Shown one piece after another: positions 11,575 to 30,420 of a DNA stretch of 30,890 nucleotides (position 1 is its first letter; each line of letters opens with the position of its first letter). Position numbers and translations under genes: made by a program. The DNA comes from a virus: the IMG/VR virus record IMGVR_UViG_3300020430_000063, positions 1 to 30,890 of that record; one strand, given 5' to 3'. A model generated the notes under the pieces. That model ran no database searches, was not told where the DNA came from, and saw only the letters and a list, made by a program, of their open reading frames with translations.

Positions 11575-11575
11575 A

Positions 11576-12892
11576 TTAACCAAACATAGATTTCAACATA
11601 GCTTCATCCATTTTCATTTTTTCATTAGCATATGTTGCTGTACTTATATCATCTCTATACCTAGCATTAAAAGTTTCTTGTGCAGTTTGTTCAGCTGTGT
11701 TTACAAAATTTTTTAATTCAACATCACTTGGGTCAACTTCCCAGGCTTGATTAGGTGCTTTAATCATATTCATATTATCAATAAAAGCATACATTTCATT
11801 CATGTTATTAAACTCTTCTATATAATTTTTAGCTAATATAGTAACTTGTTCTTTTAATTCTTGTTTAGTAGGCATTCTGTTCATTGATAAATAAAAAGCA
11901 TTTTCAACCATTTGTTCCATGCCAAGTTCTCCTGGTACATTTTCCATGTATTTTTGAAATCTATCTGCTGTTCTAGCTCTATTAGCAGTAGAAACAACAT
12001 TGTCATGGTTATCTCCATAATCACCTAAAAAATAAGCAAACATCTTTTGATGTTTTAAATTTTCTCCTTGTAAAAACATAGTGTTTTTAAATGGATTATT
12101 AGGGTCTGTTTCTAAATCGTAAGACATAACATTTGCATAATCTGAAGTACCTGGTTCTACGTATTTGTTTACATCTATCCATGCCATATATTGTGCAAGT
12201 TGACTACGTAACAATCCACTAGGTACACCTCTAGTATCATCAAAAGCACCTTGTTCTACTAAACCATTAGCTTCTAACCAATCTTGAAACATTACTACTG
12301 TATCAGTATTTTGAAATATTAATTCATATACACCAGCAGAATCACCAAAATGTCCACCAAATTTCCTTGTTAATATTTCACCTGTGTTATCATCTCTTCT
12401 TACTTCGTCTATTTTATCTGGAAAATAAACAGGAACTTCTCTTAATTGACCACCTAATCCAGCAATGTAATCGTTAATTGCTTGTTCTTTTTGAGCTTCT
12501 GTTAAATTATTATCTGCCATAATTGCATCAATAACATTTTGTATTGCATCACCGGCATAAGATGAATCTTGATTTTTATTTTGTGTAAGAACTACATTTT
12601 CTAATGTAGTAGTTACTTCTTGTTTAATGCGTTGAACATAATCATCATCACCAGCTTCTACACTGTTGTAAATATTTCTTATAGCATCTAAAGATTCTTT
12701 AGGAAAATTAGAATTTATACTACCTATAGGAGGGTCATTTGGATTTGCACCACGCATTTGAGAGTGTTGTTCCCATATTTCATTAGGTTTTAAAGCATTA
12801 AAATCATTAGAGTTTAAACCAAATAAAGGTAAATATTGTGGATTATTTAATAAATCCAGAATCATTTGTTGTATTTCTTTTTTACTTGTCAT
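11576..12892 (-). CDS. Probable internal virion protein (438 aa)
   Basis: ATG at 12892 overlaps the stop of the 1998-aa gene (TAATG). The product is acidic and helical throughout, with many Asn, Gln and Met residues (MILDLLNNPQYLPLFGLNSND; ENAFYLSMNRMPTKQELKEQV) and no Cys pairs, membrane segment or recognisable active site. Residues 330-420 look like a bundle of amphipathic helices. The last residues (KMKMDEAMLKSMFG) form an amphipathic helix as often found where virion proteins dock to each other. The family is not recognised. The close coupling to the giant protein suggests the two products act together in the head or in DNA ejection. Confidence 0.55.
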   Translation of the reverse strand: MTSKKEIQQMILDLLNNPQYLPLFGLNSNDFNALKPNEIWEQHSQMRGANPNDPPIGSINSNFPKESLDAIRNIYNSVEAGDDDYVQRIKQEVTTTLENVVLTQNKNQDSSYAGDAIQNVIDAIMADNNLTEAQKEQAINDYIAGLGGQLREVPVYFPDKIDEVRRDDNTGEILTRKFGGHFGDSAGVYELIFQNTDTVVMFQDWLEANGLVEQGAFDDTRGVPSGLLRSQLAQYMAWIDVNKYVEPGTSDYANVMSYDLETDPNNPFKNTMFLQGENLKHQKMFAYFLGDYGDNHDNVVSTANRARTADRFQKYMENVPGELGMEQMVENAFYLSMNRMPTKQELKEQVTILAKNYIEEFNNMNEMYAFIDNMNMIKAPNQAWEVDPSDVELKNFVNTAEQTAQETFNARYRDDISTATYANEKMKMDEAMLKSMFG

Positions 12893-15800
12893 TAACCACT
12901 TTCCCTTATAATATTTATTTCATCATCATTTAAATCTAAAAATTGCCATGAGCTTCTATCAGGATTTAACATTCTTAATACTACATTGTAATACAAATTA
13001 AATCCACGTGGATATTTAGCTAATAATTCTTTATTATCTTTATCAAAATACATTCTAAATTCTTGAGCTTTTGGGTCATCAGATTGTTTCCACCAATCAA
13101 AACTTACTTCTTGTCCTTGTCGGGCTAACCATGCAGCTGATTCTGCGTCATACTCTTGCATTATTGGGTACATTTCCAAAAAGTATTTACCTTCTTCAGT
13201 TGTTTTTGTTAATTCTAAATCAGGCCATATTGTTGTTATTTCATTCCATATATCAGTTATTTGTGGTAATGTAATAAACCCATACTCATCTCTTTGAAAA
13301 CCTGATAAATCAGCAGTTAAACTATTTCTAACAATTGCAAACAAATCATCTTGTTTACTACCAGGTATTGTTAAATTATCTTTTTGTAACACATTATTTA
13401 AAGTTTCAACATCTTCTTTAAATGATTGATACTGATAAAAACCTTTAGTTTTATTTATATATCTTCTGTATTCATCTGGTGTTAAATCATATCTTTCATT
13501 GTTAATTGCTTGCCATGTCATCTTTGCTTCAGGATTGTCACCATATAAAAATGGAAATGACAATGGTAATAATTCTTTTTCTCTAGAATTACTATTCCAA
13601 AAATCTACAGCATCAAAAGTTTTAACACCTTTACCAGCTACTTTAATATCTGTAGGACTAAATAAATACATATGGTCTAATCCAAATTTAGAATGAAAAT
13701 CTTGTGAGGTTTGTATTGTATCGTAATTATTTAATTCTAATATTCTTTCGTATTCTTCATACAATACAGCCATATGATAATGTATACCATTTTTAGCTTT
13801 AATAAAATATTCCGGTTTATAATTACTAGAAGGTCCTATAAAGCTTCTAATAAATCTCATAAACATATCTACTTGCGCTCTATCTCTTGCATAATCTAAC
13901 ATTGCATCTTCTATTTGTTCAATTGTAACGTCATCTCCTTCTTCCCAACCAGGTATGTTATATTTAAAATATTTATCTAATCTTCCAGCCTTCCAAACAT
14001 TAACCCACTCTAAAGAAACCATTGCATGTCTCCAATAATCTATAGTTGCATCTGCACGCATTTGTTCAAGTTCACCTAAAGCTTCTCCAGGTTCTCTTAC
14101 AATTTCTTCTGAAAATTCAAATACCCCTACTTTATCTCCCCATTCACGGCTAAGGTCTACATCTATACCTTGTAAAAATGCCCATAGTTTTTTATAAGTG
14201 GGTGCTATAGTTGCTAAGTTTTTAACTGATATTTCTTCAGGCATAGGAAATTGTGTTATCCAATCTTTAAATTCACCTAACACACCACGTGAAGGTAGCA
14301 CTCTGTTTAAAGAAAAAGAAACTATAGAGTTAGTACCAGGTACTTGTGATTGTGCAAGTAAGTTAATACTGCTTAATGTTGATTTATATTGTACTTTCAT
14401 ATTTGCTTCATCATCATCACCTTCAACTAATACAGGTCCCATCCATGCTTCAAATGGTGTCATAAACACATCATCACTAGGATTCATAGGATGTGGAGAA
14501 AACCAACCAGTATTAGTATCAGTTACATCATTTGTACCTTGTAAAGCTCTTCTACCTTTTTGTATTCCAACAACAGGGTATGGATTATTAGCTAATAACT
14601 TACCCCAAGTTTTAAATACTTCAAACCATATCTCTGGAAATGGAAATATGTTTCTTGTTACTTCAGATATCTTATGTTGTGTAGTTGTATCGTATAATAA
14701 ATCTTTTAAGTTTTCTAATGCATAAGCTCTATTCATTGGTTCTATTTCAGAAAAGTTATTCCAATTACCAGTACCTAATCGTGCTTTAGTTATTAAATCA
14801 TCTACAACTTGTTTAGGAACACCGTATGCTTTTGCATTTTTAATATATTTTTTCTGTAATGATTTATCCATTTGATTAATATGGTCCATTACCCATAACC
14901 AATAAAACTGTTTAAATACAGGCGCTCTGTTTAAATATCCAATTGGTCTACGCATTAATACTTCAAACAAACCATCTATAATATCTTCATATTTCTCTGT
15001 CTTTTTAACTTCATCTAACTCATCAGTTACACGTATCATTCCACCATTTAAACCTAAACCACCATCAGCTGTAGGTCTAAATATTTCTTTAGCAGCATCA
15101 ATAGCTTTAGCTTTTTGTTTGTTAGTCATAGCTTTGATATAACTTCTTTTTTCCCAGTTTTTAATATCTAAAGCTTTTTTATCTTTAAGTTTAGTTCTTC
15201 CAGTTATACCTTTATAACCATCAATACCACTCATAAAATCTACAGTTTTATTAGTTATTTTTCCATTTTGAACTACAGGTATTTTTCCTTCAGCAATAAT
15301 GTTTCTAAGTATTGTAGAACCTTTATTACCATCTACAACTTTATCTAGTGTCATTTGAAACTTAACATCACTTCCAACTTGTTTCATAAAGTGAATGCCT
15401 TCAACAATATTGTCACCAGTAATTTCTCTAATGTATGCTTCTTGTTGTTGTATAAGTTGGTCTAATGCCCAAGGGTCTGTTAATATATCGTAGTTTCCTG
15501 AGTAATCAGCATACTCTTCTAACCAAAATCTTCCTTCAGCAGACTCTAACCATTTGTTTAATTCAGGACTACCCCAACCATGTTTAGCTACTTGTCTTCC
15601 AATAGGGTCTGTTCTTACTTGTACATAGTCCCATAGTTTACTTTGAGCATACTCACCTGTAGATACATTAGCTTTTAGTTCCATACGGTATTCAACATTT
15701 AATGGATTCCAACCAGCTTTTTTACCTAAGAAACCAGTAAGTCCTATTGTTTGTTGTGTACCTTCTAATAACTCTTGTGACATTAAAACAGACTGTATAT

Positions 15801-18800
15801 CAGGTATATTATCTATTTCATCTTGTGTAAATCCCATATCTAACAATTTTTTATTAGACATTTTTTTACCAGTAGATAACCATTTAGTATAAATCATTGG
15901 ATTTGTATAAAAGTTGTCTAAGCCTTTAACTAACAAACGTGCTTGTTCTTCCATAAACACACGTGTTAAAAATGCAACACGTAACAATACCAAAGGTTTA
16001 AATATTTTTCTTGTATAAAAATCCATAGCTCTGTTTACAACATCAGTGTCAGTTGCAGATTTTCTAGGTATAAATCCATTTGGAAACACATAACCTTCTT
16101 TACCAAAACTTTTCATAAATTTTAGAAAACCTTTTGCATCTTGTGCTAACACTGTGCCTGGTGTCCAACCACTTGCTTCAGGAATAACATTCCAAACACC
16201 ACTTACAGTTCTTTGTATATATTGCCAAGGTATTAAAGGAACAACACTGTCTGTCATTTGTGTTAAAAACAAAGCATTCATAGTACCTACGTTTTTAAAC
16301 TTACCTACATCTCTAGAATTATCTGCAAGTACAACTTCATGTACTTCAAAATTAGAGTTAAAACCAGGTATGTTTTTTGTTTTAGCGTTAGCATAGATTT
16401 TAGAACGTTCCAACCTACTATTAATGTGTTTTAAATATTTACGTAATGGTGCTACTTTTTCAGGTCCTACTTCTGGTCCTAATATTTTTTCTACTCTATC
16501 TATTTCCCATTCTCTAAATTTTTTACCATATGCATATATAGAAGGTTTATTTTGATAATCAAGGTTTATAAATTTTAATAACCATTCAGATGCTTCTTTT
16601 TCATTATAATTATTTGCTTCCATGTGTTTTAAAAGATTTTGATATGCACGTTTTTTATTAGTAATAACTAATCCAGAATCAGGAGTAATACTTAACAACC
16701 CTTGTAAGAATGGTTCATTATAAGTTTTGTATGCTCCACCAAATCCTAAATACTTTTGTATTTCGTATTCATTTGTTCCATTAAAGTTTTCTTTAACTTT
16801 ATTTAAAGCAGCTTTAATTTTTCCAACTTCTTCTGCTTTATCAAAGTTAAGAGATTCTACTGTAGGTGTAATTACTTTTACATTTTTTGCAGTTCTAAAA
16901 GGTGATAAATCTTGACCAGTTTTTACTATACCTCTAGCACCTTGACCAATGTAACTACCTAGATTTCTATAAGCAGCATCTTGATTACCAAATCTTTTCA
17001 TAGGTTTAGATAACTGTCGTTTAACAAAATTGCTAGATGTTCTAAATGCATCAGCATCATTAGCTGCGTTTATTAATAAGTTATTTATAAATCCAGATTG
17101 ACCTACTTCACCTATAGCAGTATCTGATAATTGTTCAATAACTTCTTTTCTAGGTTGTTGTTGAGTCTTTTTTAATCCTGCTTTAGAATTAGCAACTTTT
17201 TTACCTGTACTTGCATAAGTTTTAAAGAAATTTTTAACATCATCTGCTTTATTTAAACCAAGCATTTCACCTAACAAATCAGGATGAATGTGTCTAAACA
17301 AAGGCATTCTAGACATTGCATATAAATTTTGTGGTCCAGATTCTGCTACAAGTTTAAAAATATTATTCCATACAGGCATATCAAAAATTACATCAGTTGA
17401 AGGAGCAAAATATTTACTTACTCTACCAAAAACTAATAATTGATTTCTCATTTGTTTAGCTTTTTTGTTTGTAGCTCTTACTGCTTTAGCTTCTGATAAA
17501 TAACCACTTTGTCCCAAGCTAAATAATCTTCTGAACCTACTAAAGTTCTGTGTACCTTCTTTACCAAGTTCTTCTAGTTTTCCTAAATCATCGTAAACAC
17601 TTTCAATAATCTTAGGTGTGTTAACTTTAATTTTTTTACCTTCTCGTAATAAAATTCCATTATCTAAAAATTCACTAGCTCTATTAACTTGTTTCCAACG
17701 TTTACCTACATTAGCAGTTTTTAACCATTTAGAATAAAATAATGGGTCTGCTAACTGGTGTGCTACATCAATAGAACCTGATAGTAAATTAAAAGATAAT
17801 GAACCTGGTTTATAAAATTCTGATGCGTGTACTCTACCTGGAGAATACTCCAACAATGTATTATCTGCTGCCCAAGCAGGGTGATTGTTATCAGGATTAA
17901 GAGAATATTTTCTATTAAATGTATATCTACCAGCATAAAAATTAATTTTATTTGGTCTTGCTAACGAAGTATAAAATATATCTCCATCTTCATCTCTACG
18001 TTTTAATGGCTCACCAATAGCAGCAACTGTTTTTTTATAAGATTCATCATTAGAATAACCTGCTTGTTTATAATATCTATATAATTCAGTTTCTTCTGGT
18101 ATAACAGGTTGAAAACCTATAATAGTATTTCTATCAAAGTTAATTGGTTTATCATATTTACTAGGCAAAAAACCATTACTCCAAACTTCATTCCATAAAG
18201 CACCTAAATTAGTTTGACCAGACATTTTAAAAGCTTCGTTTAATGCGCTTCCTTTACCTGATGCTAATACTTCACTATCACTTATATCAATCATTAATCT
18301 GTCTTGTGCTTCAGATATAGACATACCTTGCTCCATATAATCCTGAGCTTGTTTAATTGCACCATAGTATTCAATAGCTCTACCTTGTGTAAAAGGTTTA
18401 CCAGGCAATAAAGCATTTAAAGCTATACCAGGTACGTTTATTTTTCCTGATGGTCCAAATGTTTGCATTAACCATTCCATACCTAATACACCCCAAACAC
18501 CATATTGTATATCTCCCGGTGCAGCACCTCCTGGAAATAATCCAAATGTTAAAAAATCAGATACATTCATTTGCATATTTCTTTCTAAATCAGCAGGAGC
18601 ATATCTATCGTATATTTCTTTGTGTATAGCTTGTTCTTTTAATAAACGTTCTTTAGCTAATTCATCTTCTATATCAAACAAATCCCTACTACCAGCTGGT
18701 ATTGAGGCACCCCAAGCTGAATAAGCTACATTTAAAGGTAAATTAGGATGTGTTTCTAGTACACGTTCAAAATCATATACAGCAGAAGGATTAGCTTTAA

Positions 18801-18888
18801 ATGCTTCTACTTCTCTATTAAACTGTCTTAGCTCTTGTTGTTTGTTAAGTAAGTAATCTCTATTACTTAACCAGTTTGGATTTATCAA
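12892..18888 (-). CDS. Giant internal virion protein (1998 aa)
   Basis: This 6-kb frame is about a fifth of the window. The start appears to be TTG at 18888, right after the stop of the 132-aa gene; no ATG occurs in frame for roughly the first hundred codons. The protein mixes helical segments, basic linkers (TGKKVANSKAGLKKTQQQPRK near residue 570) and many Trp/Tyr/Phe-rich stretches. A region around 1340-1420 (RRPIGYLNRAPVFKQFYWLW) and a hydrophobic segment near 960 (FKPLVLLRVAFLTRVFMEE) could contact membranes. I looked for polymerase, lysozyme, protease and transglycosylase motifs and saw none. By size and place it resembles the very large proteins packed in podovirus heads and ejected with DNA. 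That role is inferred. Confidence 0.6.
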   Translation of the reverse strand: MINPNWLSNRDYLLNKQQELRQFNREVEAFKANPSAVYDFERVLETHPNLPLNVAYSAWGASIPAGSRDLFDIEDELAKERLLKEQAIHKEIYDRYAPADLERNMQMNVSDFLTFGLFPGGAAPGDIQYGVWGVLGMEWLMQTFGPSGKINVPGIALNALLPGKPFTQGRAIEYYGAIKQAQDYMEQGMSISEAQDRLMIDISDSEVLASGKGSALNEAFKMSGQTNLGALWNEVWSNGFLPSKYDKPINFDRNTIIGFQPVIPEETELYRYYKQAGYSNDESYKKTVAAIGEPLKRRDEDGDIFYTSLARPNKINFYAGRYTFNRKYSLNPDNNHPAWAADNTLLEYSPGRVHASEFYKPGSLSFNLLSGSIDVAHQLADPLFYSKWLKTANVGKRWKQVNRASEFLDNGILLREGKKIKVNTPKIIESVYDDLGKLEELGKEGTQNFSRFRRLFSLGQSGYLSEAKAVRATNKKAKQMRNQLLVFGRVSKYFAPSTDVIFDMPVWNNIFKLVAESGPQNLYAMSRMPLFRHIHPDLLGEMLGLNKADDVKNFFKTYASTGKKVANSKAGLKKTQQQPRKEVIEQLSDTAIGEVGQSGFINNLLINAANDADAFRTSSNFVKRQLSKPMKRFGNQDAAYRNLGSYIGQGARGIVKTGQDLSPFRTAKNVKVITPTVESLNFDKAEEVGKIKAALNKVKENFNGTNEYEIQKYLGFGGAYKTYNEPFLQGLLSITPDSGLVITNKKRAYQNLLKHMEANNYNEKEASEWLLKFINLDYQNKPSIYAYGKKFREWEIDRVEKILGPEVGPEKVAPLRKYLKHINSRLERSKIYANAKTKNIPGFNSNFEVHEVVLADNSRDVGKFKNVGTMNALFLTQMTDSVVPLIPWQYIQRTVSGVWNVIPEASGWTPGTVLAQDAKGFLKFMKSFGKEGYVFPNGFIPRKSATDTDVVNRAMDFYTRKIFKPLVLLRVAFLTRVFMEEQARLLVKGLDNFYTNPMIYTKWLSTGKKMSNKKLLDMGFTQDEIDNIPDIQSVLMSQELLEGTQQTIGLTGFLGKKAGWNPLNVEYRMELKANVSTGEYAQSKLWDYVQVRTDPIGRQVAKHGWGSPELNKWLESAEGRFWLEEYADYSGNYDILTDPWALDQLIQQQEAYIREITGDNIVEGIHFMKQVGSDVKFQMTLDKVVDGNKGSTILRNIIAEGKIPVVQNGKITNKTVDFMSGIDGYKGITGRTKLKDKKALDIKNWEKRSYIKAMTNKQKAKAIDAAKEIFRPTADGGLGLNGGMIRVTDELDEVKKTEKYEDIIDGLFEVLMRRPIGYLNRAPVFKQFYWLWVMDHINQMDKSLQKKYIKNAKAYGVPKQVVDDLITKARLGTGNWNNFSEIEPMNRAYALENLKDLLYDTTTQHKISEVTRNIFPFPEIWFEVFKTWGKLLANNPYPVVGIQKGRRALQGTNDVTDTNTGWFSPHPMNPSDDVFMTPFEAWMGPVLVEGDDDEANMKVQYKSTLSSINLLAQSQVPGTNSIVSFSLNRVLPSRGVLGEFKDWITQFPMPEEISVKNLATIAPTYKKLWAFLQGIDVDLSREWGDKVGVFEFSEEIVREPGEALGELEQMRADATIDYWRHAMVSLEWVNVWKAGRLDKYFKYNIPGWEEGDDVTIEQIEDAMLDYARDRAQVDMFMRFIRSFIGPSSNYKPEYFIKAKNGIHYHMAVLYEEYERILELNNYDTIQTSQDFHSKFGLDHMYLFSPTDIKVAGKGVKTFDAVDFWNSNSREKELLPLSFPFLYGDNPEAKMTWQAINNERYDLTPDEYRRYINKTKGFYQYQSFKEDVETLNNVLQKDNLTIPGSKQDDLFAIVRNSLTADLSGFQRDEYGFITLPQITDIWNEITTIWPDLELTKTTEEGKYFLEMYPIMQEYDAESAAWLARQGQEVSFDWWKQSDDPKAQEFRMYFDKDNKELLAKYPRGFNLYYNVVLRMLNPDRSSWQFLDLNDDEINIIRESG

Positions 18889-23763: not shown

Positions 23764-23862
23764 ATATCTCTTACCTCTCATAACTCTAGTCCCTTCCGAC
23801 AGAACTCTTTATGAGTTCTCTGTCGAAAGATGACAGAGTTAATAGAGAGGATAAAGAGATAT
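23764..23862 (+). promoter_or_regulatory. Long hairpin hiding the start codon of the first right-arm gene
   Basis: Successive helices 23764-23772/23854-23862 (9 bp), 23774-23779/23845-23850, 23782-23787/23835-23840, 23789-23791/23832-23834 and 23797-23803/23819-23825 form a nearly continuous stem of about 100 nt. Its 3' strand contains the purine-rich ribosome-binding sequence (GAGAGG) and the A and U of the ATG at 23861. Translation of that gene would need the stem to open or be cut. The apical part belongs to the four-member hairpin family (loop CTCTTTATGAGTTC). Confidence 0.65.
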
Positions 23863-24055
23863 GAATTGCTTACTATGCGAAAAACCATTCGATAAGAAAG
23901 GTTCTAAAATCCACGATTTAGCGTGGGACAGTAAGGCTAAGTCTTACCGAAAGGATGAGAATGGTAACCCAAAGACATACGTGATAAATATTCACAGAGA
24001 TTGTTATTGGGAACGCTATAACGCAAGCAAAGCTACTGAAGGGAGTGTCGCATAG
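23861..24055 (+). CDS. Small Cys/His zinc-knuckle protein (64 aa)
   Basis: First gene of the right arm. ATG at 23861 lies in a long hairpin that also covers its purine-rich ribosome site, so expression is probably controlled at the RNA level. The product has CLLC at residues 3-6 and HRDC near residue 45, separated by a basic, polar stretch with Lys and Asp. A C-x2-C plus H-x2-C set can bind one zinc ion. The rest has no known motif. It belongs to a group of small proteins in this arm with the same Cys/His pattern. DNA, RNA or protein binding in the host takeover stage is plausible. The family is not recognised. Confidence 0.6.
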   Translation: MNCLLCEKPFDKKGSKIHDLAWDSKAKSYRKDENGNPKTYVINIHRDCYWERYNASKATEGSVA

Positions 24056-24071
24056 CGACACCCCTTCGGGG
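24045..24071 (+). promoter_or_regulatory. Tandem GC-rich hairpins over a gene junction
   Basis: A 7-bp stem (GTGTCGC with GCGACAC, loop ATA) spans the stop codon of the 64-aa gene and is followed directly by CCC-TTCG-GGG, a UUCG tetraloop hairpin. The GGGG of the second stem is the only ribosome-binding-like sequence before the next ATG at 24079. No T tract follows, so mRNA protection or control of the second gene is more likely than termination. Confidence 0.6.
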
Positions 24072-24078
24072 TTACTAA

Positions 24079-24321
24079 ATGTCTGAACAAGACAAGACTG
24101 GCGCAACTATGAAAATAATTGAATGCGGATACTGTAAATTAGATGTCGATATAAACGATAGACATCCTGAATACTTACGAAGTAAAGGGATATCTATACC
24201 ATTATATCTGCATCGCAGCTGTGCATCTAAGATAAATAACTTAGGCGAAAATGTATGGCATTTTCACAAGTTATCTACGACATATAAAGTTAAGCAGAAT
24301 ACTACTGGAAAGTTATTCTAA
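24079..24321 (+). CDS. Small Cys/His zinc-knuckle protein (80 aa)
   Basis: ATG at 24079 lies 7 nt after GGGG, which is itself part of a UUCG hairpin. An internal ATG at residue 11 (MKIIECGYC) is an alternative start. The protein has CGYC (about 16-19) and LHRSC (about 44-48), the same C-x2-C / H-x2-C pairing as the preceding gene, and a basic C-terminal third (KLSTTYKVKQNTTGKLF). It ends 12 nt before a further tiny gene. The similarity of the LHRSC segment to IHRDC in the first gene suggests an old duplication. Zinc binding is inferred from these residues. Function is unknown. Confidence 0.6.
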   Translation: MSEQDKTGATMKIIECGYCKLDVDINDRHPEYLRSKGISIPLYLHRSCASKINNLGENVWHFHKLSTTYKVKQNTTGKLF

Positions 24322-24333
24322 GAAAGGAACGAT

Positions 24334-24501
24334 ATGAATATCGAAGAAATTAAAAATGCATTAGATGTAATGGAACGAACATTACATCCTGATGATTACA
24401 AGTTGCTTGTTGACGGTGTCAGCCAAGCAGTACGTAATCACAGACAGAATCAAAAGGATGACCAAATATCTGATGATTTAGTAGAGTTGGGTATCGCTTA
24501 G
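24334..24501 (+). CDS. Small acidic helical protein (55 aa)
   Basis: ATG at 24334 follows AAAGGA with good spacing. The product (MNIEEIKNALDVMERTLHPD...) is predicted by eye to be two amphipathic helices, with an acidic, polar C-terminal part (QKDDQISDDLVEL). No Cys, membrane segment or known motif. It closes the first short gene block; the next 160 bases contain a large hairpin and no gene. Small size and lack of relatives make function unknowable from sequence. The ribosome site and position after the 80-aa gene support a real gene. Confidence 0.55.
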   Translation: MNIEEIKNALDVMERTLHPDDYKLLVDGVSQAVRNHRQNQKDDQISDDLVELGIA

Positions 24502-24550
24502 GCGATACTCACTCTGGTATCTAAGGTATCCGAAATAAAATAACTGGCGT

Positions 24551-24638
24551 AATTAGAAAGAACAAGGGATATTTATCGTTCTCTCTCTCTTCTCTTATGG
24601 ATACGAGAGAGAGATTTATTCTCTTGTTCTTAGTAATT
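24551..24638 (+). promoter_or_regulatory. Stem-loop of the shared-loop family before the 109-aa gene
   Basis: Nested helices: 24551-24555/24634-24638, 24558-24566/24623-24631 (9 bp) and CTCTCTCTC against GAGAGAGAG (24605-24613). The loop TCTCTTATGGATAC contains the core shared with hairpins at 23805, 25897 and 27545. TGGCGT occurs just before the stem, as in two other members. It ends 26 nt before the GTG start at 24665 and follows the end of the previous gene block, so it marks a block boundary. Confidence 0.6.
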
Positions 24639-24664
24639 ATGTAATAAAAAGTAAGAAAGGATAT

Positions 24665-24994
24665 GTGATTACATTGGCAAAAGAAATGTCACCGGTAGTC
24701 TGCGGTATAACAGGCAACGTATTAACAGAATGGAACCAAAGAACATTCATCAATAGATATATTGATGGTAAGTTGCAATCGATTCCATTATATCTTGATG
24801 TTAATGAGGTATTAAAACTTCATAAGCAATCTGCGACATACTTGGAACGCAAAGCTGCACAAGCACAAGATAACCAAGCTGTCTATAACAAAGGTATCAA
24901 ACAAGATACTGAAGTTAATGAGACTACTACAGATACTGAGGAAGGAAACGTTCCAGCTACTCCGGCTGTAAACGTTGGTTCTGTAGAACAATAA
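24665..24994 (+). CDS. Unknown small protein with disordered tail (109 aa)
   Basis: The likely start is GTG at 24665, close after AAGAAAGG; an ATG overlapping it runs straight into a stop. If GTG is not used, ATG at 24686 is the next choice and would still retain the core. Residues 10-70 look folded (MSPVVCGITGNVLTEWNQ; IPLYLDVNEVLKLHKQ). From about 75 onward the sequence is Thr/Glu/Asn/Pro-rich and probably disordered (VNETTTDTEEGNVPATP). The IPLYLDV segment resembles IPLYLHR in the 80-aa protein, but the partner His/Cys are absent here. No function is suggested. It leads the second gene block behind a large hairpin. Confidence 0.55.
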   Translation: MITLAKEMSPVVCGITGNVLTEWNQRTFINRYIDGKLQSIPLYLDVNEVLKLHKQSATYLERKAAQAQDNQAVYNKGIKQDTEVNETTTDTEEGNVPATPAVNVGSVEQ

Positions 24995-25010
24995 TACGGA
25001 GTAATAGCTT

Positions 25011-25050
25011 GCAGTCTATATTCAGTATAGACTGCTGGGTATTTAATACC
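25011..25050 (+). promoter_or_regulatory. Two short hairpins between small genes
   Basis: A perfect 9-bp stem GCAGTCTAT/ATAGACTGC (25011-25019 with 25027-25035, 7-nt loop) is followed by GGTA/TACC closing a 5-nt loop (25038-25050). No T run follows. It may protect or process the message between the 109-aa and 81-aa genes. It lacks the loop core of the four-member family. Confidence 0.5.
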
Positions 25051-25074
25051 AATTAAAATAATGAAGGGATTATA

Positions 25075-25320
25075 ATGAAAGTAATTGATAAAATATATGA
25101 CGCAGTAAATGGCGACAGGTATGTTATTGAAACTAAACAATGTTGGCATTGTGGTAAAACAGGTAAGGTAGAAATATTTACACAAGAAATGTTCTTCCTT
25201 AATCAAGGTTATCACGTTCAAGAAGCTGTTAAATCATTGAATAGAGATTACAGAGAAATGTTGGTAACAGGTATACATCCAAACTGTTGGATAGAAATGT
25301 TCGGAAATGAGGAGGAATAA
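25075..25320 (+). CDS. Phage zinc-binding protein of the CWHCG type (81 aa)
   Basis: ATG at 25075 follows GAAGGGA. The protein has a short beta region (KIYDAVNGDRYVIETKQ), then CWHCG (about 23-27), a helical stretch, and NRDYREMLVTGIHPNCWIEMFG near the end, so C-x2-C is matched by H-x2-C. I recognise this arrangement from small conserved phage proteins, particularly in actinobacteriophages, whose function is not established. Its stop overlaps the next ATG (TAATG), placing it in a run of tightly coupled tiny genes. Zinc binding is likely; nucleic-acid or host-protein binding is a guess. Confidence 0.65.
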   Translation: MKVIDKIYDAVNGDRYVIETKQCWHCGKTGKVEIFTQEMFFLNQGYHVQEAVKSLNRDYREMLVTGIHPNCWIEMFGNEEE

Positions 25321-25469
25321 TGGTTGACCAAGAACATCTAGTAAAAATAACTGGCGCACTTAAAACAATATCAGAGGCCTTACAAGTATTAGATAAACGT
25401 GTAAGAAATAATACTGAATTAATTAGGTTACTAGCTGGTATAGACAAACCAAGTGAAGAAGAAGAATAA
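25320..25469 (+). CDS. Small coiled-coil-like protein (49 aa)
   Basis: ATG at 25320 overlaps the previous stop, with GAGGAGG just upstream; its own stop overlaps the next ATG. The product (MVDQEHLVKITGALKTISEA...) has a heptad-like pattern of Leu and Ile through residues 7-40 and a terminal acidic run EEEE. It is probably one or two helices that self-associate. No known family. The double overlap and strong ribosome site make it a convincing gene despite its size. Confidence 0.6.
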   Translation: MVDQEHLVKITGALKTISEALQVLDKRVRNNTELIRLLAGIDKPSEEEE

Positions 25470-25582
25470 TGCCTACATATAAAATAAATGTTAGATTTGA
25501 AGCAGAGGATTGGGATGACGCTGTGAATGTTGTACATTCAATGTATGTAAAAGATTGGATATCAGACATGGAGGAAGAATGA
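25469..25582 (+). CDS. Tiny beta-alpha protein (37 aa)
   Basis: ATG at 25469 overlaps the previous stop (TAATG), and its TGA overlaps the next start (ATGA). The sequence MPTYKINVRFEAEDWDDAVN reads as one beta strand followed by a helix, with an acidic tail MEEE. Similar short phage proteins that begin with a strand of the form YKxxVxFEAED are familiar to me, but no function is known. The codon overlap on both ends supports translation. Confidence 0.55.
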   Translation: MPTYKINVRFEAEDWDDAVNVVHSMYVKDWISDMEEE

Positions 25583-25773
25583 GTAACATACAATATGTTA
25601 AACAACTTTTAGATAGAGATGAAGAAATCTGTGTACATACAAGTGGTATAAATGATTTAAGAAAAATTATTGCATTTCTTAAAACAAAAGATAATACAAT
25701 TTTTGCTACAAATTGTGAATGTGGATTAGTAACAAGAAAACATAAATCATATGTTAAAGATTGGGCTATTTAA
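25579..25773 (+). CDS. Small protein with a Cys pair (64 aa)
   Basis: I place the start at ATG 25579, which shares ATGA with the upstream stop and has GGAGGAAGA before it; an upstream TTG in frame is less likely. The product begins MSNIQYVKQLLDRDEEICVH and contains a segment NCECGLVTRKHKS near residues 46-58 with C-x-C and a possible His ligand. Helices cover the first 40 residues. It belongs to the coupled run of tiny genes. Zinc binding is possible but less clear than in its neighbours because a full set of four ligands is not obvious. Confidence 0.58.
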   Translation: MSNIQYVKQLLDRDEEICVHTSGINDLRKIIAFLKTKDNTIFATNCECGLVTRKHKSYVKDWAI

Positions 25774-25783
25774 AGGAGGAACA

Positions 25784-25870
25784 ATGTCACATCCAGTACC
25801 AGGTATGGATTATTATTGCGAGTATTGTAAGAAACTAATAGAAGAACCTATACATTCTTGCGATATCTAA
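25784..25870 (+). CDS. 28-aa Cys/His microprotein
   Basis: A strong AGGAGG lies just before ATG 25784. The whole product is about one metal-binding knuckle: MSHPVPGMDYYCEYC near the front and EEPIHSCDI at the end (C-x2-C-x10-H-x-C). Such a short peptide could fold only around a metal ion. It matches the pattern of the 64-, 80- and 81-aa proteins in miniature. The stop lies just 15 nt before the next hairpin, so it ends the block. The very strong ribosome site argues against a chance frame. Confidence 0.6.
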   Translation: MSHPVPGMDYYCEYCKKLIEEPIHSCDI

Positions 25871-25884
25871 AGAACATTATTGGC

Positions 25885-25921
25885 GTGTTTGTCTTTCTCT
25901 TTATGAGTTCAAGACAAACAC
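25885..25921 (+). promoter_or_regulatory. Stem-loop of the shared-loop family before the 73-aa gene
   Basis: A perfect 11-bp stem GTGTTTGTCTT/AAGACAAACAC (25885-25895 with 25911-25921) closes a 15-nt loop containing CTCTTTATGAGTTC, identical over 14 nt to the loop at 23805-23818. TGGCGT (25881-25886) marks the 5' base. The stem ends 17 nt before ATG 25939, nearly the same distance as in the hairpin at 27530-27570. Confidence 0.7.
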
Positions 25922-25938
25922 TTTAAGAAGGGAATACA

Positions 25939-26160
25939 ATGGACGAAGTATATGATAAGTTAGACAGCTTAGATGCTGAACAGTTAAAGACTGTAATTAG
26001 ATGGACACTAACTGATTTACATAAAGCTGCTAACTCAACTAACTATAAAAAGTTAGATGACAAAGTAAAAGGATGGTGTGCAATGCTTGAAGAAGCAGTG
26101 ATACACCAGATAAACAAAGCATACAAAGCTAACGATAGCTGGTATGAGGAGGGTAAATGA
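25939..26160 (+). CDS. Small helical protein (73 aa)
   Basis: ATG at 25939 follows AAGAAGGGA behind a family hairpin, so it starts the third block. The product (MDEVYDKLDSLDAEQLKTVI...) looks all-helical, with charged heptads, one Cys and a Trp-rich segment (VKGWCAMLEE). No motif is recognised. Its stop overlaps the next ATG (ATGA), so it is coupled to the 84-aa gene. A structural or inhibitor-type role is possible, but nothing in the sequence decides. Confidence 0.6.
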   Translation: MDEVYDKLDSLDAEQLKTVIRWTLTDLHKAANSTNYKKLDDKVKGWCAMLEEAVIHQINKAYKANDSWYEEGK

Positions 26161-26411
26161 ATATAAATACAGCTATAAAAATGATAGACAAAAAGATAAG
26201 TTTAATAGCAGATATTCAAATGGTCATTGTTGATTATCTTGGTAATCAAGACAAAGAATTTAGAACAAATTTTGTAATGACTGCATTAACTAATGATGCA
26301 CTTAGAGATGATTTTACAAAGTTTTTAAATCAAACAGAAACAGATGACAATATTAAAATACAAATGACAGAAATAAATGAAATGTTTTTGTCTATGAAAG
26401 AGGAGGAATAA
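26157..26411 (+). CDS. Small helical protein (84 aa)
   Basis: ATG at 26157 overlaps the upstream stop with GAGGAGG a few bases before. It reads as several helices (MNINTAIKMIDKKISLIADI...; DDFTKFLNQTETDDN), no Cys, acidic C-terminus KEEE. It ends in a TAATG overlap with the Api92-like gene. Not recognised. Its tight coupling to both neighbours suggests that the third block is expressed as one unit. Confidence 0.6.
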   Translation: MNINTAIKMIDKKISLIADIQMVIVDYLGNQDKEFRTNFVMTALTNDALRDDFTKFLNQTETDDNIKIQMTEINEMFLSMKEEE

Positions 26412-27040
26412 TGCCTAACTGGACAGATAACAAAGTAGTAATCAGAGGGACAGCAGAAAATGTAAAACGTTTTATGAATGACATAACAACTTTAGAAGCT
26501 AACTCAGATGATACACCGAATCAAATATATAACTTAACAGATATTAATCCAGTACCAGACGTGTATAAAAATATGCACAGTGGTGCAAGAGAGATTGATG
26601 GTGTTAGATATTCAGAATGGTTTGAAGATGATGAAGGTGTAAGACCTTTATTAGATATTAATAAAGAAGAAATCATTAAGAAACATGGTTATGCTAACGC
26701 AATTGACTGGCAATATGGTAACTGGGGTACTAAATGGGGAGACTGTGATACAGAAGTACAAAGTGAAACTTATACAGATACACACGGTACAGTTGATATG
26801 ACATTTGGTAGTGCTTGGTCGCCACCTTTTATGTTATTAAATGATATTGCAATTAAATATGATTTAGAAATAACTGCTAAATATATTGTTGAGTTTGATG
26901 ATGATGAACATATAGATAGATATCCATTATCTTTAAAAGAAACAGATAAGTTGTATAAACAACATCGTGAAGGATTAGAAATCATGAGAGACGCAGTTGA
27001 AAAAGTAACTATTTTTAATATGGAAACAGATAATGAATAA
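26411..27040 (+). CDS. Api92/YubB-like ferredoxin-fold domain protein (209 aa)
   Basis: ATG at 26411 overlaps the previous stop, with GGAGGAATA upstream. The protein begins PNWTDNKVVIRGTAENVKRF and contains a central block NWGTKWGDCDTEV (about 104-116) followed by FGSAWSPPFMLLNDI (about 132-146). These Trp-rich motifs are characteristic of the Api92/YubB family, small ferredoxin-like-fold proteins found on phages and plasmids, whose biochemical role is not known. The C-terminal half is acidic with helices (LSLKETDKLYKQHREGLEI). It is followed, with an 8-nt overlap, by a Cys-rich gene. Confidence 0.78.
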   Translation: MPNWTDNKVVIRGTAENVKRFMNDITTLEANSDDTPNQIYNLTDINPVPDVYKNMHSGAREIDGVRYSEWFEDDEGVRPLLDINKEEIIKKHGYANAIDWQYGNWGTKWGDCDTEVQSETYTDTHGTVDMTFGSAWSPPFMLLNDIAIKYDLEITAKYIVEFDDDEHIDRYPLSLKETDKLYKQHREGLEIMRDAVEKVTIFNMETDNE

Positions 27041-27254
27041 TATTATTGAGTTATATTCTCATTGTGTTTTGTGTTATAAAGAACTAGAAGAACTAAATTT
27101 CTTTACTAGTCCACAAAATTATCAGGATGTATCAATAGGATTAAGTGCTGACAAAAAGAAAATGCAACTCTGGTGTAATAGACATAATGAAAACATTCAT
27201 GTATTTGAATTAGCTGATACGCTTGATGCTTGTTGTGATGATTGTGCGTTATAA
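27033..27254 (+). CDS. Cys-rich small protein (73 aa)
   Basis: ATG at 27033 overlaps the end of the Api92-like gene. It has CVLC near residues 11-14, LWCNRHNENIH in the middle and DACCDDCAL at the very end, so up to six Cys and two His are available, enough for two metal sites. The middle is polar. No family is recognised. As last gene of the third block it is followed by over 300 bases of folded noncoding sequence. A nucleic-acid-binding role is possible but only suggested by the metal-type ligands. Confidence 0.6.
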   Translation: MNNIIELYSHCVLCYKELEELNFFTSPQNYQDVSIGLSADKKKMQLWCNRHNENIHVFELADTLDACCDDCAL

Positions 27255-27525
27255 GAGGATTAGTGGCATCTAATTGAACGCAGCTAAGGCTACTTACATT
27301 GCTGGTTTCCCTTTGTACCAGCCGGTTAGACCAAGATGTAGGTAGCTTAGTGTTTATTAGTAAGAGTTAGATTAATACCCTGTTGTTCTAACGACTGAAC
27401 GTAAGCACTAAGCTATCTATAAACAATAATACAATGGCGTGCTGTTGTTAAGTTAAGATAGTAAACCATCTGTTGTATCATTTTAAAATAGCTTAACTAG
27501 AATATCTACAATACACAGATGGCGT
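27255..27525 (+). ncRNA. Structured noncoding region with mutually exclusive helices
   Basis: No gene is present. Helix A: 27289-27299 with 27336-27346 (11 bp, one G-U), extended after a bulge by 27284-27287/27347-27350; it encloses 27301-27306/27317-27322. Helix B: 27341-27352 with 27406-27417 (12 bp, one G-U), enclosing 27366-27371/27387-27392. A and B share bases 27341-27350 and cannot coexist. Downstream 27451-27457/27492-27498 and 27466-27473/27515-27522 cross, so they form either a pseudoknot or another switch. TGGCGT occurs at 27435-27440 and 27520-27525. I looked for a tRNA and found none. It may be a switch-like leader for the fourth block or an independent RNA. Confidence 0.5.
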
Positions 27526-27529
27526 AATT

Positions 27530-27570
27530 GTATGTCTGTCTTTTGTCTTATGACTCAAAGACAGACATAC
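27530..27570 (+). promoter_or_regulatory. Stem-loop of the shared-loop family before the 157-aa gene
   Basis: A perfect 14-bp stem GTATGTCTGTCTTT/AAAGACAGACATAC (27530-27543 with 27557-27570) with a 13-nt loop TGTCTTATGACTC, the core of which (TCTTATGA) matches the other three members. TGGCGT lies 5-10 bases before the stem. The stem ends 18 nt before ATG 27589, and AAAGAAGGGA in between is the ribosome site. The stem strength makes this the best-defined member. Confidence 0.7.
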
Positions 27571-27588: not shown

Positions 27589-28062
27589 ATGGAATACTTA
27601 GAAGTAAACGATGAAGAAATGTTAGAATATCTAATAACTCTTACGTACGTTAATATGCCTGGTACTAAAGGTAAACATAGACACGTAAGAATTATACTCA
27701 AAGCTACGGACCCAGTACAAGCTATGGTTCGTGCAATGAATATAGATATTGCAAACAAAGCTGAAATGATGACAGACTATATTGGACCTTACCCAGATAA
27801 AATGGGACAGAGTACATTTACAAGGGAAGAGATAGAAGAAATCAGACAGCAAGCTATTGATTCAGGATTATTCCAAGACTGGTTGATAGGTGTTAAACCT
27901 ACAGCCATCCAAGTAGTCTTGCAGTCCAAAGTAGATATCATTAACAACATTGCTATTGATGAAGTTATGGAACATTCTACACACATAGGAAGTCAAGCCG
28001 AAGACTTTCTTAAAGAACAAGATAACAATAATGATAAGAAAGGAAGTGACAACGATGAATGA
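27589..28062 (+). CDS. Unknown protein upstream of the AAA ATPase (157 aa)
   Basis: ATG at 27589 follows AAGAAGGGAG behind a family hairpin. The N-terminal 65 residues look alpha/beta (EYLITLTYVNMPGTKGKHRH then VRIILKATDPVQAMVRAMN). Residues 80-110 contain a helical stretch (TREEIEEIRQQAIDSGLF), and the tail is acidic and disordered (EQDNNNDKKGSDNDE). No recognisable motif. It overlaps the ATPase gene by 8 nt and so probably acts with the MoxR-VWA pair, perhaps as an adaptor or substrate. That is an inference from the operon only. Confidence 0.6.
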   Translation: MEYLEVNDEEMLEYLITLTYVNMPGTKGKHRHVRIILKATDPVQAMVRAMNIDIANKAEMMTDYIGPYPDKMGQSTFTREEIEEIRQQAIDSGLFQDWLIGVKPTAIQVVLQSKVDIINNIAIDEVMEHSTHIGSQAEDFLKEQDNNNDKKGSDNDE

Positions 28063-28774
28063 TGATTGTTGGCAACTTATTAATGATGTTATACCAGTAT
28101 CACAAAGGATACTATTATGGGGTCCACCAGGTACAGGTAAAACATACAGTGCAGTGAAAGAAAATGCACCTATAAATATAAATGGAAGTACTAATGTATT
28201 TCAAATAACAATGACAGAGGACACTGCTAGTGCAAACCTAGAAGGTTTTTATAAACCTAGTAGTGATGGAAACTTTGTATGGAATGACGGTCTAGCTATT
28301 CAAGCATGGAGAACAGGTGGTAGATTGGTTATCAATGAGATAGACCACGCTTCACCAGATGCTATGACATTTCTGCACGCTATATTAGATGACCCAGAAA
28401 TTGCAGGTATTACTTTAAATAATGATACCAAAGAAACTGTTCATCCAGCACTAGGGTTTCAAGTTATTGCAACTACTAACAGCCCACCTGAGAGTTTACC
28501 TTTAGCATTAAAGGATAGATTCCCAGTTCAGGTACACGTAGATAGCATACATCCTAAAGCAATGGAACAATTCCCAAGTAATTGGCATGATGTTATTAAC
28601 GATACAACATTAGTTGATGACCCAGAAGATAGAGTATCAGTTCGTTCTTGGAAAGAATTCTTTATGTTAATAGATAGAGATTTTACTGAGGAGAAAGCAG
28701 CCAAGCTTATATTTGGTAGCAAAGCAGAAGATATTATTGACGCTGTAATGGTTGCTAAAGCTGACAATGGATAA
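28055..28774 (+). CDS. MoxR/CobS-like AAA+ ATPase (239 aa)
   Basis: I choose ATG 28055 over the upstream in-frame ATG (28031) because AAAGGAAG lies between them. The protein is a compact AAA+ module: Walker A GPPGTGKT (23-30), Walker B LVINEID (91-97), sensor-1 region VIATTN (137-142) and a probable Arg finger in LKDRFP (152-157). Family members (MoxR, CobS) use ATP hydrolysis to remodel proteins or insert metal ions, usually with a VWA-domain partner. Here that partner is encoded next, with an 8-nt overlap. The length is shorter than many MoxR proteins, so the C-terminal lid may be reduced. ATPase activity is likely; its target is unknown. Confidence 0.85.
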   Translation: MNDDCWQLINDVIPVSQRILLWGPPGTGKTYSAVKENAPININGSTNVFQITMTEDTASANLEGFYKPSSDGNFVWNDGLAIQAWRTGGRLVINEIDHASPDAMTFLHAILDDPEIAGITLNNDTKETVHPALGFQVIATTNSPPESLPLALKDRFPVQVHVDSIHPKAMEQFPSNWHDVINDTTLVDDPEDRVSVRSWKEFFMLIDRDFTEEKAAKLIFGSKAEDIIDAVMVAKADNG

Positions 28775-30224
28775 AGCTAAACCTTATCCAGAAATAATTA
28801 CTAGTACTACTTGGAAAATTAACGAAGCAGTTGAAGGTCAACAACCTAAAACTGACAATATAAACTATCAAATGACTGTACCGTTAGGTAAAGTCTGCGA
28901 GTTTTGTGGAGTTAATCACGGTAGAAATGTCAGAATGCTACAGCTAGGCCATGCTAAATGGTCGCCTAAAACTGTAGGTAAACTAGGACATAATACTAGA
29001 TTAGAAGCTGTTGAAGTACTATCAGATGCAAGAATTAAGTGGTTGTTATTTGTAGAAAAAATAAAATTTACAAATGATTTTATATGTCCACAATTAATAC
29101 AAGCACAATTTAATCAGCTATTACCAGTAGGTAGTATAGGAGAAATTATAATGTTTCTTCTTAAATATACTAGTTGGCAAATGCCATCTAGTAGAAATTC
29201 TTGGTATAGTACAAGATATTATTCTGAGTTAACTAGTTCATTGATTAGATTAATGGAATACTATGGAGATGATATGCGTTTTACACAACAAAGACGTGCT
29301 GAGTATGCATTTATTATTCACCAATATCATGAAGTATTAGAAATATTACTTAATCGTAGTAGAAAAAAGATAATACCATTTAATCGTGTTAAAGTTGCAG
29401 CTAAATACTTAACTGTATTCTTAGATGAACTTAACGAAAGACCTAGTCTTGATGAAATCTGGGACAAAACCTTAAAGCAACAAAGCAGTTCGCTTGGTAG
29501 TGAAGCTGGGGAAGAAGATGGTCTTACCATCGAAGACACAGCTGAAGATGGTGCAAATGCTGCAAGCGCAGGTGATACGAAAAAACAATTAGAATATCGT
29601 ATGCGTAAAAGCTTAGTAGAGGAAATGACTTATCGTTCTCAACACGGTATGGGTAGATGGGGTATTATGGAAATAGAAAATCCTATACTTCAAGTTAATC
29701 TAAATGGTAAACTTAAAAATGGTAGAGGATATCGTGCTATGAATTACGGTCACAATCCTAAATACATTAATAGATACTGTATAGATAAACAAATCTTCAA
29801 ACAAAATCATAGAGTTAAAGGAGGTACTATTCTTATAGATGCTTCAGGTTCTATGCGATTTAATGGTGAAGATATACTAGAGATAATGAATATACTACCA
29901 GCTGTAACTATTGCTATGTACAATGGTGGTGGATTAGGTGGTATATTACGCATTATTGCTAAAGGTGGACGTAGAGTTACACAGGATTACTTAGATAGAT
30001 ATACCGGTGGAGGTAATATTGTTGATGGTCCAGCATTACGCTGGCTAGCAGAAATGCCTGCACGTAGAATATGGGTATCAGATATGAAAGTATTTGGTGT
30101 TGGTGCTAATTCTTCAGGTTATAATTTACTTAAAGATTGTTATGATATTTGCACACAGAATAAAATAATTAATCTAAAAGATATAGATGAAGTTAAAGAA
30201 CACGCACTTAAATTAAATATGTGA
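28767..30224 (+). CDS. VWA-domain partner of the AAA+ ATPase (485 aa)
   Basis: ATG at 28767 overlaps the end of the ATPase gene. Residues 44-47 (CEFC) and HGRNVRMLQLGH form a short Cys/His-containing N-terminal part. The central part is helical, followed by a very acidic linker (240-265). The C-terminal VWA-like domain starts near 350 with the metal-binding motif DASGS (358-362), includes RYTGGGNIVDGPALRW (411-426), where the usual Thr is not obvious, and has WVSDMK (436-441) with the expected Asp. Together with the ATPase it resembles CobS/CobT- and MoxR/VWA-type pairs known from several phages. The target might be a protein complex or a metal-insertion reaction; nothing here identifies it. 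Confidence 0.78.
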   Translation: MDKAKPYPEIITSTTWKINEAVEGQQPKTDNINYQMTVPLGKVCEFCGVNHGRNVRMLQLGHAKWSPKTVGKLGHNTRLEAVEVLSDARIKWLLFVEKIKFTNDFICPQLIQAQFNQLLPVGSIGEIIMFLLKYTSWQMPSSRNSWYSTRYYSELTSSLIRLMEYYGDDMRFTQQRRAEYAFIIHQYHEVLEILLNRSRKKIIPFNRVKVAAKYLTVFLDELNERPSLDEIWDKTLKQQSSSLGSEAGEEDGLTIEDTAEDGANAASAGDTKKQLEYRMRKSLVEEMTYRSQHGMGRWGIMEIENPILQVNLNGKLKNGRGYRAMNYGHNPKYINRYCIDKQIFKQNHRVKGGTILIDASGSMRFNGEDILEIMNILPAVTIAMYNGGGLGGILRIIAKGGRRVTQDYLDRYTGGGNIVDGPALRWLAEMPARRIWVSDMKVFGVGANSSGYNLLKDCYDICTQNKIINLKDIDEVKEHALKLNM

Positions 30225-30228
30225 TACA

Positions 30229-30393
30229 ATATAAAGCATTAGAAAGTAAACTAGCAATAGTGTAGTGTTTCCTTTCCGCTATAAAAGCTTTCTAAAGTAA
30301 TGGAATAGAGTCGGAAGAGAACTCCGAACATGGTTTAATTCGTACTATCTGTACAATGTCAATCCCAATAGTGAACACCATTACGCTTTATAT
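30229..30393 (+). ncRNA. Compact three-way-junction RNA candidate (~165 nt)
   Basis: P1 ATATAAAGC/GCTTTATAT (30229-30237 with 30385-30393, 9 bp) encloses P2 TTAGAAAG/CTTTCTAA (30239-30246 with 30288-30295, 8 bp) and P3 GTAATGG/CCATTAC (30297-30303 with 30378-30384, 7 bp). Only one unpaired base separates P1 from P2 and P2 from P3, and P3 stacks directly on P1. Within P3 are TCGGA/TCCGA (30311-30315 with 30323-30327), ACAT/ATGT (30328-30331 with 30356-30359) and GTAC/GTAC (30342-30345 with 30351-30354). No gene lies in the interval. It starts 4 nt after the VWA gene and ends 27 nt before the next ATG. Confidence 0.6.
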
Positions 30394-30420
30394 GTTTGCA
30401 TAAAATATAAATGAAGTATA

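Follow-up and report, generated by a model that had tools for sequence, protein, structure and literature searches.

Why should four hairpins in one phage genome, built on stems that have nothing in common, carry the same few letters in their loops? The question arises in the window analyzed here, the whole 30,890-base IMG/VR virus record IMGVR_UViG_3300020430_000063, which derives from a tailed phage with its structural genes (terminase, capsid, and a 1998-amino acid (aa) protein among them) on the − strand and its non-structural genes on the + strand from 23861 on. We find that the hairpins belong to a design shared by an abundant, uncultured marine phage group. Several hairpins per genome stand directly before the same non-structural genes, the copies within a genome end in matching structured tips, and the tip changes from one lineage to the next.

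A first-pass annotation had placed four hairpins before gene blocks and had pointed to a common core in their loops. All four are present where it put them, and the placement before gene blocks holds both in the window and in related contigs. The pattern [CG]TCTTT?ATG has exactly four matches in the window with both strands counted (23805, 24592, 25897, and 27545), each inside a hairpin loop closed by a stem of 7–14 bp; dinucleotide shuffles of the window lead one to expect 3.5 core matches, with only 0.56 lying in a loop that a stem of ≥6 bp closes. The annotation was also right that hairpins 1 and 3 share their loop letter for letter (CTCTTTATGAGTTC), that the four stems bear no relation to one another, and that two stems end 17–18 nucleotides (nt) before a start codon, the distance to the ATG being 17 nt for hairpin 3 and 18 nt for hairpin 4. 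The elements and the genes around them are as follows:

23797..23825, + strand: hairpin 1, upper stem-loop; stem CGACAG/CTGTCG, inner stem ACTC/GAGT, loop TTTAT
23774..23850, + strand: hairpin 1, extended fold; −36.7 kcal/mol, z −5.9; lower stem CCTCTC/GAGAGG
23861..24055, + strand: 64-aa gene behind hairpin 1; CxxC, HxxC-type
24079..24321, + strand: small CxxC...HxxC protein; no significant Pfam or PHROG family
24580..24614, + strand: hairpin 2, upper stem-loop; loop TTCTCTTATGGATAC
24547..24642, + strand: hairpin 2, extended fold; −40.2 kcal/mol, z −5.0; base takes in most of one TGGCGT word
24665..24994, + strand: 109-aa "PVVCGITG" gene behind hairpin 2; family with an upstream hairpin in 6/9 genomes
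25885..25921, + strand: hairpin 3; stem GTGTTTGTCTT, apex TCTCTTTATGAGTTC (CTC/GAG around TTTAT)
25939..26160, + strand: 73-aa gene behind hairpin 3; family g26028, upstream hairpin in 13/14 genomes
27530..27570, + strand: hairpin 4; stem GTATGTCTGTCTTT, apex TGTCTTATGACTC (GTC/GAC around TTAT)
27589..28062, + strand: 157-aa gene behind hairpin 4; family g27678, upstream hairpin in 10/15

The 14-nt loop reported earlier is correct as a sequence but not as an open loop. It folds further, with CTC/GAG around TTTAT or GTC/GAC around TTAT plus an asymmetric internal loop, and the conserved unit is a structured apex with a short inner stem. Hairpins 1 and 2 are the upper parts of the longer folds 23774–23850 and 24547–24642; in the predicted fold, the lower stem of hairpin 1 pairs GAGAGG, the likely Shine-Dalgarno (SD) sequence of the 23861 gene. 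Homologues of this 64-aa gene in contigs L089 and L093 also have a hairpin with the same tip type upstream. The CobS-like AAA ATPase that follows the 157-aa gene has no hairpin of its own (1/15 in its family), and a fifth copy lies beyond the window end (L083:13867-13907), in the near-identical longer relative G001 (42,935 bp). Plain termination, doubted from the start, is not supported, as no T run (no U-tract in the RNA) follows hairpins 1–4 and an SD sequence comes directly after instead. Rfam gave no match above the gathering threshold in the window. The word TGGCGT was considered as a promoter word and rejected: its four copies, all on the + strand, are within chance (38/100 shuffles). 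Three of them lie directly before hairpins, and the copy at hairpin 2 is part of the stem base.

The same hairpin design recurs in related marine phage contigs, where the tip types follow lineage: C-UU(U)AU-G; CUUACG/CUUGCG; a 17-nt loop T..CTTATG..TC; and UAUAAAAAA. Lineage A (G001, L086, L088) carries TCTCTTTATGAGTTC, TGTCTTATGACTC, and CGTCTTTATGACTT; lineage B (G003–G005) carries CTCTTTATGAGCC, AATTCTTTATGAATTTC, and TTTTCTTTATGGAAAAT; lineage C (L097–L111) has 17-nt loops such as TTCCGACTTATGAAGTC and TCACTACTTATGTAATC. The tip is CATACTTTTGTAC in lineage D (L106), ATCCTTGCGG or TACCTACGT in lineage E (L125, L146), and ATTCTTATGAA in lineage F (L103), while lineage G (L096) sets TATAAAAAA, plus CATAAAAAA and TATTAAAAA, on eight stems. 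Usually the tip contains a short inner stem that itself covaries (CTC/GAG, GTC/GAC, ATTC/GAAT). At an orthologous site, each hairpin keeps the tip of its own genome, as is seen in leaders of the Rad52-like gene (tip in the outer brackets): GTATTTGTTTTT[CTCTTTATGAGAA], ATACGTTTCTT[TACCTACGT], TTTCTTTTTTTCTT[TATAAAAAA], and GTATTTTTATGTAC[TCACTACTTATGTAATC]. When genome labels are permuted, loop likeness is far higher within than between genomes (z 15.8–17.7) and stem likeness within genomes is only slightly raised (z 4.4–5.1); these z values and similar figures overstate significance because related sequences are not independent, and it is the effect sizes that matter. The first-pass annotation had named loops that vary freely in relatives as evidence against its proposal. 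Within a genome the loops are not free (z ∼16–18 versus ∼4–5 for the stems), but between lineages they do change, which fits a co-evolving partner.

Placement is equally regular. An upstream hairpin is found for the Rad52-like gene in 13/14 genomes, for g26028 in 13/14, for g27678 in 10/15, and for g24754 in 6/9, and for any one structural family in at most 4/14. With stems of ≥10 bp, the Rad52-like, g26028, and g27678 genes have hairpins in 11, 11, and 5 genomes, where shuffles lead one to expect 0.1, 0.4, and 0.05. Orthologous genes thus retain the hairpin despite replacement of the stem sequence. Among 76 distinct hairpins, 55 have a 3′ end 11–34 nt upstream of a start codon with an SD sequence. 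There are up to eight copies per contig, and consecutive small genes can each have one. The same scan of T7, HTVC010P, TM4, Immanuel3, and parts of N4 and DSL-LC01 gave no comparable hairpin set.

The stems are free in sequence and strict in pairing. The annotation had called for the loop to be searched on any stem, and a search with just the tip finds perfectly complementary arms at 41 of the 43 + strand copies and at none of the four − strand copies. MAFFT alignments of tips of unequal length were unusable for pair counts, and an equal-length set of 32 hairpins with a 17-nt loop, selected for being paired, was used instead: all eight outer pairs show double-sided changes and are 100% paired, with a covariation of 1.10 versus 0.25 when shuffled. 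The first eight pairs of 47 apex-selected paired hairpins comprise 375 Watson-Crick pairs, one A-C, and no G-U (376 in total), a count from which unpaired matches are excluded by construction. The loose lineage C apex pattern had also hit shifted registers and unrelated sites, and the pair statistics draw on these 47 paired cases only. The 5′ arm of these hairpins is 73% pyrimidine, a bias that is uninformative on strand because it is identical on both strands of a perfect hairpin. Some outer stems continue past one mismatch (L106, L088, L115, L104, L089, L133), mostly at a distance of 8–12 bp from the loop. Contig L106 has four hairpins with a mismatch, at position 10–11. A fixed register for the lineage C inner stem is unsupported for columns 13–15/20–22 and only partly supported for columns 13–17/21–25 of the 17-nt set, so that in this lineage the register of the inner stem shifts.

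Does the hairpin act as RNA or as DNA? We prefer RNA, though this is not proven. The SD sequence is adjacent, the internal loop is asymmetric, and in the inner stems, where T-A, A-T, C-G, and G-C all occur, G-U outnumbers A-C by 11 to 4, as expected of + strand RNA. A wider count of G-T versus A-C over all intergenic hairpins (35 versus 29) was set aside, since it includes hairpins of other classes. RNA is also preferred because an N4-like promoter needs a polymerase, and the proteins scanned yielded none, although a very divergent one could be missed.

Matching tips on unrelated stems that differ by lineage suggest a partner that reads the tips. We therefore propose, at about even confidence, that the hairpins are cis-acting elements of leader RNAs, bound by a lineage-specific trans factor and controlling the translation or processing of non-structural genes. 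In each element, a rigid stem without mispairs, almost unconstrained in sequence, presents the structured tip, with its short inner stem, small U-rich loop, and asymmetric internal loop. This tip would be bound by the trans-acting factor, for which an RNA-binding protein encoded by the phage and shifting its specificity by lineage is the likeliest choice. It is probably phage-encoded because the tip changes together with the genome while the target genes stay the same. As the stem adjoins the SD sequence, binding could switch the translation of these genes, or a processing step that frees the leader, together as a regulon; at hairpin 1, the structure itself is predicted to cover the SD sequence as well. 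A broader version, which we hold tentatively and consider doubtful as a whole, is a phage-wide system of RNA tags in which lineage-specific structured tips on arbitrary perfect stems would be read by a fast-evolving phage factor, giving each lineage a private code.

Some points weigh against the proposed leader-RNA control. If selection acted on pairing only, an RNA helix would be unusual in having no G-U among its first 8 bp, a feature that a DNA hairpin would accommodate. Of the 17 interior mismatches in outer stems, 12 are A-C (or C-A) and one is G-T, an unexplained bias. When tip divergence was compared with that of the proteins, no gene stood out as the trans factor; the top correlations, those with the 591-aa and 335-aa proteins of the structural module, were set aside as general phylogeny. 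Finally, the 157-aa protein has a predicted fold of low confidence (predicted local distance difference test (pLDDT) 69), with no PDB match at E ≤0.001.

The earlier finding of conserved tips on unrelated stems holds, and the partner that it suggested could be a protein or an RNA. An antisense RNA to the tip is disfavored in the window's own lineage, where G001 has a single − strand TCTTTATG, which falls among the structural genes at 9832. Among proteins, the 73-aa family (g26028; three predicted helices, pLDDT 88.7) and the 157-aa family (g27678) are both acidic. The small CxxC/HxxC protein at 24079..24321 is a speculative candidate for the tip reader. Proteins of this type from other lineages are for the most part basic and fast-evolving and have a hairpin before their own genes; the CxxC/HxxC proteins have no significant Pfam or PHROG relatives.

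Processing or stability hairpins offer another account, in which cleavage at or close to an intercistronic hairpin, by RNase III or an enzyme of the phage, would leave a structure that shields the mRNA downstream. The intercistronic sites in the non-structural module and the long perfect helices would suit this, as would the two-storey stems with internal loops of hairpins 1 and 2 and the lower helix past one mismatch in several relatives. Many copies lack a lower helix, however, and a lineage-specific tip on free stems is not something that a host RNase III should require. The scan that found these hairpins gave no comparable set in T7, though the loops of T7 sites may fall below its loop size. 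We regard this explanation as unlikely.

The strict pairing also raises the possibility of DNA hairpin promoters of the N4 type, which would be extruded from supercoiled DNA. A virion RNA polymerase would read their template-strand form and begin transcription close to the 3′ foot. Stems without G-U agree with this, a + strand A-C equals a G-T on the template strand, and the position suits short leaders with an SD sequence; in N4 itself, it does not matter which bases occupy the non-conserved stem positions, provided that the hairpin is kept (PMC4496689). Yet no RNA polymerase was found by Pfam and PHROGs among the proteins scanned, although a very divergent enzyme could be missed. A search with PF00940 hit 0/12 genomes, but the control genomes gave no match either. 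The 1998-aa protein lacks the conserved polymerase motifs and matches no solved structure, nor does it match N4 gp50 (hhalign probability of 1.6%). Stems of 9–16 bp with loops of 9–18 nt are unlike the short N4 hairpins with their 3-base loops, and the inner-stem G-U excess favors + strand RNA. We consider a DNA promoter quite improbable.

Slightly more doubtful still is antitermination of the boxB kind, with an N-like phage protein binding the nascent hairpin and modifying the host RNA polymerase for each gene block. Lineage-specific tips at the starts of non-structural blocks do resemble the phage-specific boxB/N pairs, but up to eight copies per contig, even before consecutive small genes, do not fit well; by eye, the leaders read showed no conserved boxA and no basic N-like peptide was recognized, neither having been searched systematically. 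Very improbable is a template-switch correction of quasi-palindromes during replication, with the tips as mere stable closures such as C(UUNN)G: it would account for 8 bp free of G-U and of nearly all other mismatches and for the many C-UUNN-G tips, but leaves unexplained the lineage-specific tips (for example, UAUAAAAAA, with 7/8 copies on perfect arms), the constant loop lengths per lineage, and the placement before the same genes.

In viral contigs, at least 598 stretches hold a related terminase and at least 66 loci a related ATPase. No close isolated phage is at hand: Immanuel3 and other Streptomyces phages have a terminase ∼26% identical to that of the window. Bacterial bins contain related terminases at six loci; three are from one Actinomycetota metagenome-assembled genome, which makes an actinobacterial host plausible, and the remaining loci are from bins of three other groups. 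No tRNA was found in the window.

Several other features of the window deserve mention. Before the 25075 gene, 25011–25051 holds a second conserved structured element, GCAGTCTA[TATTCAGTA]TAGACTGC then TGGGTATTTAATACCA. Unlike the tip hairpins, it conserves its stem sequence, with GCAGTCTAT in lineages A and B and a similar TAGAGTGTAT...GTACACTCTATGGTAT in other lineages; its stems in relatives contain G-U pairs. Two longer noncoding stretches, 27245–27520 and 30225–30420, seem structured when inspected by eye, and phage noncoding RNAs may be encoded there; they have no Rfam match. The 28031–30224 region encodes the CobS-like AAA ATPase and then a 490-aa protein matching phrog_33218, the same order as in Actinomycetia phage DSL-LC01, where an AAA ATPase is followed by a gene annotated as a cobalamin biosynthesis protein. 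In the structural module, the 1998-aa protein (12892–18888, − strand) is conserved in the group (an alignment of eight members puts identity with the window protein at 24–32%) and has no significant relative in Pfam, PHROG, or solved structures. The 747-aa protein of the virion module (9340–11583, − strand) contains a domain matching phrog_2072 (E 7e-38, function not known).

Should a phage factor read the tips, abundant uncultured marine phages would have a regulon whose specificity drifts by lineage while its gene targets stay fixed. Nature would thereby offer a set of RNA tips with their matching readers, in which the evolution of RNA–protein specificity can be followed, and a handle on the timing of non-structural genes in phages with no identifiable polymerase or known regulator. 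The signature, a loop that repeats on a stem that does not, is simple yet could be missed by ordinary repeat or covariance searches.

Parts of this pattern are found in known systems. The T7 RNase III sites are intercistronic hairpins in early genes that are not known to follow a lineage-specific tip rule; they share the intercistronic position with our hairpins and differ in that the tips here are lineage-specific. Phage T4 has intergenic CUUCGG hairpins, in which one stable loop recurs while the stems are unrelated, whereas here the tip varies by lineage, is usually not UUCG, and is accompanied by a conserved internal loop and loop length. The MS2 coat operator is a translational operator, a hairpin near the ribosome binding site whose loop is read by a phage protein. 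In the T4/RB69 gp43 operator, a phage protein likewise recognizes the loop of a hairpin close to the ribosome binding site, and that loop changes between related phages, being UAAC or UAAA (PMC3014915). Such operators control one gene, whereas here several genes per genome have the same tip on a nearly free stem. The promoters of the N4 virion RNA polymerase are also short hairpins at early genes, with a conserved loop and a tolerant stem identity (PMC4496689), but no polymerase was found here, the stem and loop sizes differ, and the inner pairing favors + strand RNA. The closest published pattern is that of the extended start-associated sequences (ESAS) of cluster K mycobacteriophages. Like our hairpins, the ESAS and the start-associated sequences (SAS) occur in many copies, only in the non-structural part, in one orientation, and directly before gene starts; their consensus differs by phage subgroup, and a link to translation initiation has been proposed for the ESAS (PMC3203893). 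No 13-bp SAS repeat (GGGATAGGAGCCC) was noticed in the leaders read, with no search aimed at SAS, and none is required here. The conservation is reversed between the two systems: the ESAS have conserved 17-bp inverted repeats around variable spacers, with changes that do not support RNA pairing (PMC3203893), whereas here the arms are free, covary perfectly, and differ within each genome, and it is the loop that is conserved.

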